Part shown: positions 79 through 6,209 of the stretch, in pieces
How the letters are laid out: each line of letters opens with the position of its first letter
Position numbering within the stretch: the first letter of the stretch is position 1
NCBI GenBank assembly: GCA_009380045.1
Contig: WHSN01000015.1
Coordinates: forward strand, 1 to 40,242
DNA from: Luteitalea sp.
GTDB lineage: Bacteria > Acidobacteriota > Vicinamibacteria > Vicinamibacterales > CAVVIG01
Length of the DNA: 40,242 bases
Direction: 5' to 3'
Program-made: the position numbers and the translations under genes
Notes under the pieces: model-generated
What the model was told of the DNA's origin: nothing
Database searches by the model: none
Seen by the model: only the letters and a program-made list of their open reading frames with translations

Positions 79-906
79 TCACTTCTGGCGCGTCAAGCTC
101 TTGAGGCGATCGAACTCGGGGCGGGGCAGCGAGACGCTGCCGGGGCCGCCACCGCCGTGCGCGTCGTCGGCGTGGTAGTCCGACCCGCCGCTGACCGCGA
201 GTTCGAGGTCCGCTGCGAGGTCGAGATAGTGGCGGGTGGCGCGCGCGTCATGGTCGGTGTGGTAGGCCTCGAGCGCGTCCATCCCTGCGGCCGCGAATGC
301 CGGAATCCACTCATCGTGCTCGACGAGAACCGGGTGCGCGAGGGAGGCGACGCCGCCGGCGCCGTGAATCCTGCTGAACACCTCCTCCGGGGAGGGCCCG
401 ACCCGCGGCACGAAAGCCGGGCGACCGGGCGACAGCCAGCGGTCGAACGCGTCGCTGACGTTCTCGACGTGGCCGCCCGCGACCAGCGCGCGGGCAATCC
501 ACGGCCGGCCCGCCGATCTCGATGAGTCTTCGAGACCCGGCTGGAGAACCGCCTCGGCATCGAGCGTGATGCCGTTCGCCGCCAGGCGCGCGATCATCTC
601 ACGCACGCGATCGACGCGCCGCCGGCGCTGTTCGGCGAGAAACGCCTGCAGACCGCCAGCTGCGGCATCGATGAAGTACCCGAGCACGTGGACATCCGAG
701 CCGTCGACGACGGCGGTGATCTCGATGCCGGCGACGAACTCGACGCCGGCGCGGCTGCAGGATTCCGCCACGGCGGCGCAGCCGGCGACGGTGTCGTGAT
801 CGGTCACGCTCAGCACCTGCACGCCGGCGCGTGCCGCGCGGTCGACCAGTTCGCGCGGCGTGCAGCGGCCGTCCGAGGCGGTGGTATGGGTGTGGAGATC
901 GATCAC
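79..906 (-). CDS. PHP domain metal-dependent phosphoesterase (TrpH/YciV-like)
   Basis: VIDLHTHTTASDGRCTPRELV, SVTDHDT, HVLGYFID, SLAHPVL, SGGSDYH motifs; GTG start at 906 overlaps the upstream stop (GTGA). The longer 338-aa ORF start is probably not real. Confidence 0.9.
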   Translation of the reverse strand: MIDLHTHTTASDGRCTPRELVDRAARAGVQVLSVTDHDTVAGCAAVAESCSRAGVEFVAGIEITAVVDGSDVHVLGYFIDAAAGGLQAFLAEQRRRRVDRVREMIARLAANGITLDAEAVLQPGLEDSSRSAGRPWIARALVAGGHVENVSDAFDRWLSPGRPAFVPRVGPSPEEVFSRIHGAGGVASLAHPVLVEHDEWIPAFAAAGMDALEAYHTDHDARATRHYLDLAADLELAVSGGSDYHADDAHGGGGPGSVSLPRPEFDRLKSLTRQK

Positions 907-1856
907 AGAGCGGGTGTGACGCCTTCGTCCGAGCGGCGCAGGCCGAGCCGCTGGCGCAGGGCGCGGTATTCGTCGATCAGGAGATCGCGATGCGCGCGCT
1001 CTTCGTCCGCGAACTCGAGAAACACCTGCTTGCCCTCCGAGTCTTCGAACCGGTCGCCGTATTTCTTGAAGAACTTGTGCGAATCCCGCTCGCACTTGAT
1101 GCCGATGAGCAGCGCCTGCAGATCGTCGACGCCGGCGCTCAACTTTTCAGCGCCCTCGGCGAAGATGCCGTTCGCCGCTCCCTTGAAGAACAGGAACGTC
1201 GGTCGCGACTCGAGCAGCGGATCGGTCGCGATCAGCTCCTGGTAACGTTTCTCGAGCGTTCCGAGGTGTTCCTTCTCCTCCGCGGCCAGACGACGAAACA
1301 CGTCACGGCCGCGCGGATCGCTCGTCAGCGTTGCGGCTCGGGTATAGAAGTCGAGGCCGGAGCGCTCCGTCGCCACGGCAATGCGGAGCGCGTCGCGGGC
1401 GAACACCCGCTCGGTGGTCTCGCCGTCGATCGGCGGAATCTTGGCGCCGGTGCGACACTCCTCGCAGGCGCCGTAGACCTGGATGATCGTCTGTTCGGGC
1501 ACGAAATTCCGCGCCGCCGCAATCTCCTCGATGAGCGCTTCCACATCGGAGCTGAGAAACTCGGACGACCGGTGACACTCGTTGCAGACGAAGTGAAAAT
1601 GACGGGGATGGCGGTAGGACGGTTCGAATCGCGAGCGGCCCTCGCCGAAATCGACCTTGCGGGCGATGCCGGCGTTCACCATCCACTGGAGTGTCCGGTA
1701 GACGGTGGCGCGGCCGATCCCTGCATCCTCGCTGCGGACGAGGTCGCACAGATCGTCCGCGCTCAGATGCCCTTTCTGGCGCAGGAAGATGTTGAGGATT
1801 CGGTCCCGCTTGCTCGAACGCTTCCCGCCGACCGGGCGCAGGCCCGAAACATCCAA
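903..1856 (-). CDS. Fur/PerR-family regulator fused to a C-terminal rubrerythrin (ferritin-like diiron) domain
   Basis: N-terminus: GRATVYRTLQWMVNAGIARKV wing-helix, HPRHFHFVCNEC and CEEC zinc site; C-terminus: TERSGLDFY, EEKEH, KCERDSHKFF, DEERAH diiron ligand pattern, all in one uninterrupted ORF. Confidence 0.93.
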   Translation of the reverse strand: MDVSGLRPVGGKRSSKRDRILNIFLRQKGHLSADDLCDLVRSEDAGIGRATVYRTLQWMVNAGIARKVDFGEGRSRFEPSYRHPRHFHFVCNECHRSSEFLSSDVEALIEEIAAARNFVPEQTIIQVYGACEECRTGAKIPPIDGETTERVFARDALRIAVATERSGLDFYTRAATLTSDPRGRDVFRRLAAEEKEHLGTLEKRYQELIATDPLLESRPTFLFFKGAANGIFAEGAEKLSAGVDDLQALLIGIKCERDSHKFFKKYGDRFEDSEGKQVFLEFADEERAHRDLLIDEYRALRQRLGLRRSDEGVTPAL

Positions 1857-1861
1857 GTGCG

Positions 1862-2191
1862 TTATTCGACCGTGAAGGACGACCCGCAGCCGCAGGTGGA
1901 CGTGGCGTTCGGGTTCTTGATCGTGAACCCTCCGCCAGTGACGGTGTCCACGAAGTCGACCTGAGCGCCAGTCAGATACCGGACGCTGATGGGGTCCACG
2001 AACAGCTTGATGCCATGCGACTCGTACACCTGGTCACCCGCACCCTGGCCGTTCTCCTCGATCATCAGGCCATACTGGAAACCCGAGCATCCGCCGCCCT
2101 GGACGAACACACGGAGGCCGCTGCCGGCCTTGTTTTCTTCGGACAGGAGCTCGGTGATTTTGGAGGCGGCCGTTTCCGATACGTTGATCAT
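1862..2191 (-). CDS. erpA: HesB/IscA-family iron-sulfur cluster insertion protein
   Basis: GLRVFVQGGGCSGFQYGL and C-terminal STCGCGSSF; SD-like GAGGAG upstream of ATG at 2191. Confidence 0.93.
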   Translation of the reverse strand: MINVSETAASKITELLSEENKAGSGLRVFVQGGGCSGFQYGLMIEENGQGAGDQVYESHGIKLFVDPISVRYLTGAQVDFVDTVTGGGFTIKNPNATSTCGCGSSFTVE

Positions 2192-2218: not shown

Positions 2219-2224
2219 ATTATA
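2219..2224 (-). promoter_or_regulatory. -10 element (TATAAT on minus strand) for erpA operon
   Basis: Plus-strand ATTATA; minus TATAATGGCGGTAACTTGAGGAGAAATTTTCAG-ATG. Confidence 0.5.
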
Positions 2225-2237
2225 CCATTCAGTCTCC

Positions 2238-3164
2238 ATGCCTTACGTCGCCATGGCCCCCGCCGTCCGTGGGACCCGTCTGGCCGCAGCCACGGCCCGC
2301 TGGGACGCAATTCTCGCCCTTCGGCCAGACCTGGCGCCGGCGGTTGAACTGCAGCGCCACCTCCTCGGGGTGATCGGACGGCTGGCGGACACCATCGAAG
2401 AGGGCCGGTTCCCGCGCCTTTCACTGCCGTCGAACTATCTCGCCGCCAAGCTGGCCACCGGTGTTCCCGCCTTGTCGGGCGAGCCAATCCCTCTGCCGGT
2501 CCCGCTGCTCAAACCCGCACTGCTCGAGCTGTGCGAGCATCTGTCGCGAGGCGGAGCAGGCGAGGCGGCAGACCACATCCGGACCGCTCTCGATGAGACG
2601 CGGATGGAAGCCGGTTCGTTGCTGACCGCTTCGCTCAAGCGTGACCAGGCCGCCATTCGAACCGGCGCCGTCCATCGGGGCCTGGCGCCCGATCTCCTGT
2701 GGCTCGTCGCCGAACTGGCCGTCAGTCCGTTCGTCTACATGCTGCAACAGAGCCTGTTCTCCTCAGCGGAGCCGAGCTCTTCATTGCGAAGCTCGACCGA
2801 CGCCTGGCGCCATGGCTACTGCCTGTCGTGCGGCTCCTGGCCGGTTCTGGCCGAAGTCGCCGACGGCCACCGAATCTTACGCTGCTCGTTCTGCGCACTC
2901 GCTTGGGAGCTCGCCACGCACGCGTGCGTCTACTGCGGCCACTCCGGCGAAAAGTTCGTCACCGCCGCACCGGACGGCGACAGGAGCGATCGCCGTCTCG
3001 AAGCCTGCGGCGCGTGCGGCGCGTACCTCAAGACCGCGGATGTCGCGGCGCTGTCGCCGTTCCCGCTCCTGGCGATCGCCGATCTCGAGACAATGGAGCT
3101 CGACACGATGGCGATGGAACACGGCTACGCCCGCCCGCCGATGAAAGATTTCGCCAAACGGTAG
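2238..3164 (+). CDS. fdhE: FdhE-like formate dehydrogenase accessory protein
   Basis: CLSCGSWPVLAEV...LRCSFCALAW...CVYCGHSG...EACGACGAYLKT...MEHGYARPP pattern of FdhE zinc-binding domain. Confidence 0.85.
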   Translation: MPYVAMAPAVRGTRLAAATARWDAILALRPDLAPAVELQRHLLGVIGRLADTIEEGRFPRLSLPSNYLAAKLATGVPALSGEPIPLPVPLLKPALLELCEHLSRGGAGEAADHIRTALDETRMEAGSLLTASLKRDQAAIRTGAVHRGLAPDLLWLVAELAVSPFVYMLQQSLFSSAEPSSSLRSSTDAWRHGYCLSCGSWPVLAEVADGHRILRCSFCALAWELATHACVYCGHSGEKFVTAAPDGDRSDRRLEACGACGAYLKTADVAALSPFPLLAIADLETMELDTMAMEHGYARPPMKDFAKR

Positions 3165-3240: not shown

Positions 3241-3263
3241 GCTCCGGGGCTCACCCCCGGAGC
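3241..3263. terminator. Hairpin GCTCCGGGG-CTCAC-CCCCGGAGC over fumarase stop codon
   Basis: Perfect 9-bp stem; no T-tract, so intrinsic termination is uncertain. Confidence 0.4.
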
Positions 3264-4768
3264 GCCGCCAGCTGCTCCCCGGAGGTTTCTTCGATGTCCC
3301 TGTGCAGGCTGTTGCCGTGCGCGTCCATTGTGACGATCGCCGGGAACGCGTCGACCCGGAGGTGCCACATCGCTTCCGGAGTGCCAAACTCCAGCAGCGA
3401 CACGCCCTCGACCGCCGTGATTGACCGCGCGTAGAACTGCGCCGCCCCGCCGATCGCGTTCAGGTACACCGCGCCGTGCTCTTTCAAGGCGGCGAGCGTC
3501 TTCGCGCCCATGCCTCCCTTGCCGATGACGGCGCGCACGCCGTACCGCTTGATGATCTCGCCCTGATACGGCTCTTCCCGGATGCTCGTGGTCGGGCCGG
3601 CCGCGGTCACGCGCCAGCCGTCGCCCTCTTTCACCACGACGGGGCCGCAGTGGTAGAGGACGGAGCCGCGCAGATCGACCGGCGGCTCGTGCTTCATGAG
3701 ATGCGCGTGTACGGCGTCGCGTCCGGTGAACATGCGTCCCGACACCAGCACCATGTCGCCGACCCTGAGCGCACGCACGTCCTCTTCAGTGAGCGGCGCA
3801 TTCAGCACCAGCTCCTTGCCGGTGCGGACGAATCCGGCCTGATCGATCATCGGAATGATCGGATGCGACGGGTCACGATACAGCCAGGTCCTGATTTCCC
3901 CGGTCGATCGGTCGAGGATCACGCCGAGTCGCCGGAACGCCCAGCAGTCGTAGGCGACCGAGACGAAAAAGCTCGCCGGCAGACGATTGAGCGCTGCCAC
4001 TTTGCACCCGATCAGCGTCACCTTGCCGCCAAACCCCATCGGACCGATCTCGAGCGTGTTCACCGTCGACATCACGGAGGCTTCGAGCTCGGCCAGCCTC
4101 CGATCCGGGTTCACGTCGTCCAGGGTGCGGAACAGCTGCTCCTTCGCGTGCAGATATCCAGAGGTGCGATCGCCGCCGACACAGACCCCCACGGCCCCGG
4201 GACTGCAGCCTTTCCCCTGCGCGTTCCACACCGCGTGGAGGATGCACTTCCTCACACCGTCGAGCGTCCGATCCGCCCGGCCGAGATGCGCCAGGTCGAC
4301 CGGCAGCGCGTACTGCGCGTTGGTGTTCTCGCAGCCGCCGCCCTTCAGAATCAGCTTGACCTCGATGTCGTCCCGTTCCCATTGATCGAAATGGATGATC
4401 GGGGTGCCGGGCCCGAGGTTGTCCCCCGAGTTCTCGCCGGTCAGCGAATCGACCGAATTGGGCCGCAGCTTGCCCCGCCGCGTCGCTTCACGAATCGCGT
4501 CGCGGATCTGGGCGCGCATCCAGATCTGGTTGGCGCCAACCGGGACGTGCACCTCGAAGGTCGGCATCCCGGTGTCCTGGCAGATCGCGCCCTCGTGATC
4601 GACCGCCAGATCGATGTTCTGCGAAATGATCGTCAGCGCCTGTGACGCGCGCGTCCCGGCGGGCTCGGCCGTGGTCGCGATCTTCATCGCCGCCCTGACG
4701 TCGGGCGGGAGATCGGTCGACGTGCGGACAATCAGTTGGAGGACGCTGTCGAAGAATGATGGAAGCAT
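3251..4768 (-). CDS. Class I fumarate hydratase (fused alpha/beta)
   Basis: CQDTGMPTFEVHVP, PGTPIIHFDQWE, KGGGCENTNAQYALP, GSVLYHCGPV, TTSIREEPYQGEIIKRYGVRAVIGKGGMG. Confidence 0.92.
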   Translation of the reverse strand: MLPSFFDSVLQLIVRTSTDLPPDVRAAMKIATTAEPAGTRASQALTIISQNIDLAVDHEGAICQDTGMPTFEVHVPVGANQIWMRAQIRDAIREATRRGKLRPNSVDSLTGENSGDNLGPGTPIIHFDQWERDDIEVKLILKGGGCENTNAQYALPVDLAHLGRADRTLDGVRKCILHAVWNAQGKGCSPGAVGVCVGGDRTSGYLHAKEQLFRTLDDVNPDRRLAELEASVMSTVNTLEIGPMGFGGKVTLIGCKVAALNRLPASFFVSVAYDCWAFRRLGVILDRSTGEIRTWLYRDPSHPIIPMIDQAGFVRTGKELVLNAPLTEEDVRALRVGDMVLVSGRMFTGRDAVHAHLMKHEPPVDLRGSVLYHCGPVVVKEGDGWRVTAAGPTTSIREEPYQGEIIKRYGVRAVIGKGGMGAKTLAALKEHGAVYLNAIGGAAQFYARSITAVEGVSLLEFGTPEAMWHLRVDAFPAIVTMDAHGNSLHRDIEETSGEQLAALRG

Positions 4769-4793: not shown

Positions 4794-4799
4794 CGAGCG

Positions 4800-6209
4800 A
4801 TGGGATTCCGCACCGAGCGCGACCCGCTGGGCGAGCTGAGGGTTCCCTCGGAGGCGTACTACGGCGTGCAGACCGAGCGCGCGGTCGAGAACTTTCCGAT
4901 CAGCGGTCTCCGCGCCCCGGCCGACCTCATCACCGCAACCATCCTGGTCAAGAAGGCGGCCGCCCGGGCCAACCGGGAGCTCGGCCGACTCGATCCGGCG
5001 ATCGCCGACGCCATTGCCGCGGCGGCTGACGAGATCCTCGCCGGGAAACTGCGCGACCACTTCGTGGTGGACGTCTACCAGGCCGGGGCGGGAACCTCGC
5101 ACAACATGAACGCGAACGAGGTGCTCGCCAATCGTGCGGGGGAGCTCCTGGGCGAGCCGCGCGGATCGTACGCGCGAGTGCATCCCAATGACCACGTGAA
5201 CATGGGGCAGTCGACCAACGACGTGTTCCCCGCTTCGACCCGTCTCGCCCTGCTGCTGGGCTCCGCTCCCCTGGTCGAGGCCGCGCACGCGCTCGTCAAG
5301 AGCCTTTCGCTCAAGGCGGCTGCATTCGCGACCACCGTGAAGACCGGCCGCACGCACCTGCAGGACGCGGTGCCGATCACCCTCGGGCAGGAATTCAGCG
5401 GCTACGCGGCGTGCCTCGCCAGCGGCGCAGACGACGTGGAGCATGCCGCGCGGCAGCTGGAAGAGTTGAACGTCGGCGCCACGGCGGTCGGGACCGGGTT
5501 GAATGCCGGCGACGCGTACCGCGTGCGCGTCGTCGATCTGCTTGCGCGCGAAACGGGTCTCGGCCTGCGGCCGGCGGCCAACCTGTTCCGCGTGACGCAG
5601 AGCATGGGCGACGTGCTCGCCTACTCGGGGGCGATGCGCCGGCTCGCGGTGGAGCTCGGAAAAGTGGCGAGCGACCTTCGGTTGCTCAGCATGGGGCCCC
5701 GCGCGGGGCTGTCGGAGATCGCGCTGCCGGCGGTGCAGCCGGGCTCGTCGATCATGCCCGGCAAGGTGAATCCATCGGTTCCGGAGATGGTGAATCAGGT
5801 GTGCTTCCAGGTCATGGGATGCGACACGACCGTGGCGCTCGCCTGTGAGGCGGGGCAGCTGGAGCTGAACGTGATGATGCCCGTGATCGCATGGAACGCG
5901 CTGCACGCCTCGACGATCCTGAGGACGTCGATCGACGTGTTCCGTGCGCGCTGCGTGGAGGGCATCACCGCCGACGGCGCACGGGCGCGCGAGCTGCTCG
6001 ATCGCAGTACCGCGACGGCGACGGCGCTCAGTCCCTACATCGGCTACGCCGCTACCGCGGAGATCGCCAAGGAATCGGTGACCACCGGGCGGCCAATCCG
6101 CGAGCTCGTGCTCGAGCGGAAGCTGCTCGACGCGCGACAACTCGACGACATTCTGTCCGTCGACGCCATGACGCGCGGTGGCATCGTCGGCGCCAAGGGT
6201 GAGAAATGA
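4800..6209 (+). CDS. aspA: Aspartate ammonia-lyase (aspartase/fumarase class II superfamily)
   Basis: N-terminus GELRVPSEAYYGVQTERAVENFPISG (aspartase-like), HPNDHVNMGQSTNDVFP, PGSSIMPGKVNPSVPEM. Confidence 0.85.
   Translation: MGFRTERDPLGELRVPSEAYYGVQTERAVENFPISGLRAPADLITATILVKKAAARANRELGRLDPAIADAIAAAADEILAGKLRDHFVVDVYQAGAGTSHNMNANEVLANRAGELLGEPRGSYARVHPNDHVNMGQSTNDVFPASTRLALLLGSAPLVEAAHALVKSLSLKAAAFATTVKTGRTHLQDAVPITLGQEFSGYAACLASGADDVEHAARQLEELNVGATAVGTGLNAGDAYRVRVVDLLARETGLGLRPAANLFRVTQSMGDVLAYSGAMRRLAVELGKVASDLRLLSMGPRAGLSEIALPAVQPGSSIMPGKVNPSVPEMVNQVCFQVMGCDTTVALACEAGQLELNVMMPVIAWNALHASTILRTSIDVFRARCVEGITADGARARELLDRSTATATALSPYIGYAATAEIAKESVTTGRPIRELVLERKLLDARQLDDILSVDAMTRGGIVGAKGEK

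Follow-up and report, generated by a model that had tools for sequence, protein, structure and literature searches.

The window, by which we mean the whole stretch of 40,242 nucleotides analyzed here, contains a gene in which a Fur-family regulator is joined to a ferritin-like diiron domain. The gene lies on the minus strand and forms an operon with erpA. The genes at this locus and the promoter-like element are as follows.

79 to 906, minus strand: PHP-domain phosphoesterase gene (PF02811), whose GTG start overlaps the TGA stop of the fused gene (GTGA).
903 to 1856, minus strand: fused gene encoding Fur and a ferritin-like diiron domain, identified from its ORF, Pfam matches and relatives with the same fusion.
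1862 to 2191, minus strand: erpA, encoding an A-type carrier for Fe-S cluster insertion (NCBIfam ErpA, above cut-off).
2219 to 2224, minus strand: TATAAT, a -10-like element of the erpA-fusion operon, present upstream of erpA in most relatives.
2238 to 3164, plus strand: FdhE-like gene, divergent, between erpA and fumA (weak FdhE matches, below curated cut-offs).
3251 to 4726, minus strand: fumA, encoding a class I (Fe-S) fumarase (Pfam Fumerase and Fumerase_C).

The fused gene is one ORF of 317 amino acids on the minus strand (codons 906 to 1856 plus a stop extending to 903), with a TTG start codon at 1856 to 1854 and a TGA stop codon at 905 to 903. The plus-strand reading of positions 903 to 1856 gave no meaningful protein, and the coding strand is the minus strand. 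A sequence-only reading of this DNA had described a single polypeptide comprising a Fur regulator and a diiron domain, and this was borne out by Pfam domain analysis, which matched both FUR and Rubrerythrin within the one ORF. The same reading had noted that a rubredoxin domain is lacking, and none was matched in Pfam or NCBIfam. The features of the protein, all encoded on the minus strand, are given below.

1449 to 1829, minus strand: Fur domain, residues 10 to 136, a winged helix plus dimerization domain (PF01475, E 1e-24; Foldseek).
1560 to 1769, minus strand: Fur regulatory metal ligands H30 (1767 to 1769), E78 (1623 to 1625), H86 (1599 to 1601), H88 (1593 to 1595) and E99 (1560 to 1562).
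1455 to 1586, minus strand: structural Zn(Cys)4 site formed by C91, C94, C131 and C134.
1407 to 1448, minus strand: variable linker, residues 137 to 150 (39% mean identity within the order).
948 to 1406, minus strand: ferritin-like domain, residues 151 to 303, a four-helix bundle with a crossover segment (PF02915, AF2, and PDB relatives 2fzf, 1vjx and 2oh3).
990 to 1367, minus strand: diiron ligands E164 (1365 to 1367), E194 (1275 to 1277), H197 (1266 to 1268), E256 (1089 to 1091), E286 (999 to 1001) and H289 (990 to 992).

The Pfam FUR match covered residues 10 to 128 with 87.4 bits against a cut-off of 23.1 (E 1e-24), and Foldseek matches of this half were Fur crystal structures (TMt of ~0.8), the best being Francisella tularensis Fur (5nhk). 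The CNEC and CEEC motifs that had been read as a zinc site were located at residues 91 to 94 and 131 to 134, respectively. All five regulatory ligands and the four zinc-binding cysteines were invariant in the 74 fusion proteins aligned. Asp104 is the residue required by peroxide-sensing PerR and distinguishes PerR from Fur (PMC4866751). The corresponding residue is Glu99 in 74/74 fusion proteins, and the earlier label of PerR was therefore not upheld; judged by its sequence, the regulator half belongs to the Fur type and not to the PerR type. It has the fold and the His ligands of PerR but carries Glu99 in place of Asp104, whereas with Fur it shares the winged helix and dimerization fold, the site of three His and two Glu, the Zn(Cys)4 site and the Glu at the key position. 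The protein differs from Fur in having ~165 extra residues, which make up the ferritin-like diiron domain, in its operon with erpA, and in that no classical Fur boxes were found near iron genes.

The C-terminal half matched Rubrerythrin (PF02915) in two stretches (E 6.6e-13), and this match was found in all 33 members of the fusion family that were tested. The AlphaFold model of the full-length monomer was confident and contained two domains (pLDDT 89.4, pTM 0.83), with C-terminal helices predicted at residues 145 to 177, 181 to 211, 225 to 240, 245 to 269 and 274 to 303; the second half modelled alone gave an AF2 pLDDT of 92.5. The ligand pattern claimed previously held as E164, E194xxH197, E256 and E286xxH289, except that the KCERDSH segment contributes E256 only, its His standing outside any ExxH pair.

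The description of this half as a complete rubrerythrin was not sustained. Classical rubrerythrin has an extra (seventh) ligand, Glu97, as part of an ExxE in helix C. Aligned to it is Ser259 in the order (51/51 proteins) and A, S, T or N in the distant group. Foldseek matches were moderate, the best being the COG1633-type structures 2fzf and 2oh3, followed by Dps and bacterioferritin, and the closest named relatives in sequence were the PRK12775 ferritin domain, EncB cargo and TM1526/COG1633 proteins (2fzf, 1vjx and 2oh3; NF009413, E 8e-19). The sequence and fold matches listed as best for the domain included no classical rubrerythrin. Classical rubrerythrin shares the four-helix diiron domain (PF02915) with the fusion, but the latter has no rubredoxin domain and has Ser at the Glu97-type position. 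Because of these two differences, and because the nearest relatives are of other types, the earlier term was an overstatement, and on its sequence the C-terminal half is properly termed a ferritin-like diiron domain. The COG1633/TM1526, EncB and PRK12775 domains are free-standing, encapsulin cargo or part of GltD-type enzyme fusions; unlike the domain described here, none is attached to a DNA-binding regulator. One genome of the same order (G048, locus L202) encodes a PRK12775-type ferritin-like domain preceded by a Cys-rich (rubredoxin-like) sequence, from which the fused domain may have been derived.

The fusion was present in 94 of 100 related genomes, mostly as full-length matches at 58 to 81% identity. 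Among the exceptions, G036, G094 and G099 gave no match, and G049, G070 and G096 gave weak matches to free-standing Fur only. The order carrying the fusion is likely Vicinamibacterales, of the phylum Acidobacteriota. In a 297-genome sample of the phylum, a diverged fusion (31 to 42% identity) was found in 24 further genomes of other families, together with one further partial match and many genomes with free-standing Fur only. A contig scan beyond these relatives yielded 80 Fur loci, all of them free-standing, and no fusion was found in the whole genomes from which 40 of these loci came. The fusion thus has so far been seen only in the phylum of the window, in a biased sample in which other phyla are sparsely covered. 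No plasmid sequence covering the fusion was found. In a tree of Fur domains, a free-standing acidobacterial Fur (L076) grouped with the fusions of the order (SH-aLRT 93). The base of the C-terminal-domain tree was likewise without resolution, and the trees neither supported nor excluded that the fusion arose once.

Within the order, mean identity was 74% for the Fur part and 75% for the ferritin-like part, compared with 39% for the linker, and dN/dS was ~0.02 to 0.15 in both halves (12 close pairs), indicating purifying selection on both. The six diiron ligands were invariant in 51/51 sequences of the order and in 12/12 from other distant lineages outside family f41. Only 16 of the 153 ferritin-domain columns were invariant in these 63 sequences, and all six ligands were among them (P of ~5e-7 under random placement). 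In f41, at least one diiron ligand was gone in 10 of 11 members and the ferritin-like domain was retained. Loss of the ligands across orthologues, which had been named as refuting evidence, thus gave a mixed picture, with losses in f41 only. That a Fur regulator and a diiron center are physically joined, as had been envisaged, holds across the order, where one conserved gene encodes both and both metal sites are constrained.

The erpA stop codon lies 5 nt ahead of the fusion start, and erpA is directly upstream of the fusion in 52/52 loci of the order. The PHP gene follows the fusion in 46 of these 52 loci, some of the remainder being truncated. fumA is found upstream, on the same strand as erpA and the fusion, in 21/52, and the FdhE-like gene is divergent upstream in 28/52. 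In the window, the class I (Fe-S) fumarase gene (3251 to 4726, minus strand) is head to head with a gene for a class II fumarase/aspartase-type lyase (4797 to 6209, plus strand). The latter belongs to an iron-independent family, and the arrangement of the pair suggests an iron- or oxidant-dependent swap of enzymes. In the distant group, several fusion loci adjoin complex I genes (NuoD and NuoI by sequence). Fe-S proteins appear to be a theme common to the fusion neighborhoods. The f41 loci whose proteins have lost diiron ligands are L062 to L070 and L074, and most of them adjoin nuoD/nuoI-like, methionine aminopeptidase and lipoamide dehydrogenase-like genes.

The genome of the window has no Fur-family match other than the fusion, which is also the only Fur-family gene in most of the 27 related genomes that were checked. 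DtxR-type regulators occur in most relatives, where they may share the control of iron; the genome of the window gave a weak, sub-threshold match only. Classical Fur boxes are nearly absent from this genome, in which two near-consensus sites were found, neither near iron genes. A genome-wide Fur-box search and analysis of the regions upstream of erpA and feoA revealed no operator or regulon for the fusion: no dyad upstream of erpA recurred in more than three loci, and the feoA upstream regions had no palindrome in common. An element, GTATACCAAC, precedes the erpA-promoter TATAAT by ~11 bp in L008, L009, L014, L017, L019, L020, L022 and other loci. When strict spacing was required, 7 of the 9 relatives searched had a single genomic copy of GTATACCAAC...TATAAT. 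This element belongs to the erpA promoter of one family and is missing from that of the window. In L008, L009 and L019, GTATACCAAC pairs with TTGGTATA as an inverted repeat.

The explanation that we tentatively favor, at somewhat less than even confidence, is that the protein is a global Fur regulator serving Fe-S supply, in which a diiron domain responsive to iron and oxidant tunes binding to DNA. Under this explanation, the fusion is the main, and often the sole, Fur-family repressor of the order. We infer that both halves bind metal and that the redox state of the diiron site is coupled to DNA binding at target genes. The Fur half would bind Fe(II) at its Fur-type site and, given sufficient iron, repress its targets on DNA. 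The ferritin-like half would provide a second, dinuclear site that loads Fe(II) and is oxidized by O2 or H2O2, and its occupancy and oxidation would change how the dimer is shaped or how stable it is, so that DNA binding is tuned. A Fur domain that is not itself peroxide reactive would in this way gain an oxygen, peroxide and iron input, much as hemerythrin-type diiron domains supply one to FBXL5 and BRUTUS. Fe-S supply and the enzymes that depend on Fe-S are probably part of the output, since the gene is in an operon with erpA and often lies beside an Fe-S fumarase. In favor of this explanation are the single ORF with both domains, the conservation of the fusion and of its ligands, the confident two-domain model, the operon, Glu99, the sole-Fur status, the use of diiron domains as sensors elsewhere, and the unfused Fur genes beside ferritin-like genes in a WOR-3 and a Chloroflexi genome; the operator search that found none, the ligand loss in f41 and the DtxR-type regulators of most relatives speak against it. 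A broader proposal, which is possible but rather doubtful, is that of a dual-input metalloregulator in which a Fur repressor senses O2/peroxide and iron through its diiron center; it would replace the division of labor between Fur, PerR and OxyR across the order and control Fe-S supply through its own operon.

Alternatively, the C-terminal domain could be mainly a structural or oligomerization module, or an iron reservoir for the Fur site, with a redox chemistry that does not signal. Fur proteins and ferritin-like proteins both dimerize, which is in keeping with such a role, as is the retention of the whole domain in the 10 of 11 f41 members without a full diiron set. Family f41 is a natural experiment in this respect: because the ligands are lost and the domain is kept, the domain there cannot work solely through its metal. 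Metal ligands would be superfluous in a pure scaffold, however, and the invariance of all six in 63/63 sequences outside f41, in a domain with so few invariant columns, counts against this role. We regard it as unlikely, although it is the strongest competitor of a tuned repressor.

Rather less probable is a bifunctional protein, in which a tethered peroxidase or ferroxidase protects the Fe(II) site of Fur or nearby DNA, by local action or through coregulation. The diiron site is intact, some ferritin-like and rubrerythrin relatives are oxidases or peroxidases, and unfused Fur and ferritin-like genes are neighbors in other phyla (WOR-3 and Chloroflexi), all of which would suit a tethered enzyme. 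The absence of a rubredoxin domain and of a Glu97-type ligand (Ser259, 51/51) nevertheless indicates that it is not of the classical NADH-peroxidase type, and a regulator would be a low-copy site for a bulk enzyme. It is very improbable that the protein is a peroxide sensor of the PerR type to which a detoxifying rubrerythrin was added: H30 and the remaining N-donor ligands are common to PerR and Fur, but the Glu at the Asp104 position in every aligned protein led us to reject a PerR identity. It is scarcely credible that the fusion is an artefact, of genes joined in assembly or of separate products made from an internal start, since, although Val151 is encoded by GTG in 22 of 51 relatives, no internal start is conserved, the linker varies but its frame stays open, and the fusion recurs in 94 related genomes, in two lineages and in single-contig genomes. 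Its presence in 94/100 relatives, the equal conservation of its halves and the low dN/dS exclude both a mistake in assembly and a fusion in decay. These relatives and the low dN/dS, together with the place of all six diiron ligands among the 16 invariant columns, also put the fusion far beyond chance.

In textbooks, Fur and PerR are metal sensors with a single site, and the integration of iron and oxidant signals is usually credited to several regulators. In a group of what are probably abundant soil bacteria, the sole Fur-family protein appears to carry a second, conserved diiron center of the O2/H2O2-reactive type, and this architecture hints at a switch with iron and oxidative state as joint inputs. 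If the two sites communicate, both signals would be read by one protein.

The diiron domains of FBXL5 and BRUTUS are sensors of iron, O2 and H2O2, and the diiron centers of BRUTUS are reversibly oxidized by O2 and H2O2 and are non-labile once oxidized (PMC12022348). These hemerythrin-domain E3 ligases likewise have a diiron domain fused to a regulatory output (PMC12022348). They differ in that they are eukaryotic, belong to an unrelated fold family and act through ubiquitination and not DNA binding. The tuned repressor, if real, would be their bacterial counterpart with an unrelated fold. No paper describing the fusion was found in full-text literature searches on the fusion or its organisms, and no Fur fusion is shown in the searched passages of a paper on rubrerythrin architectures (PMC5114695). 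This conserved architecture, a variant of the Fur family, is apparently new to the literature.

MbfA, a ferritin-like domain joined to a Vit1 iron exporter, also fuses such a domain to an effector of iron homeostasis, although its effector is a membrane exporter, whereas that of the fusion is a repressor. The genome of the window encodes, on another contig (C74, locus L212), an MbfA-like protein in which a Vit1-type membrane domain comes after a ferritin-like domain, as judged from sequence, and its gene adjoins one for a ZIP-like transporter. In one WOR-3 genome (L200) and one Chloroflexi genome (L201), unfused Fur-family genes lie in clusters that hold two or three ferritin-like genes, a possible unfused counterpart of the fusion.
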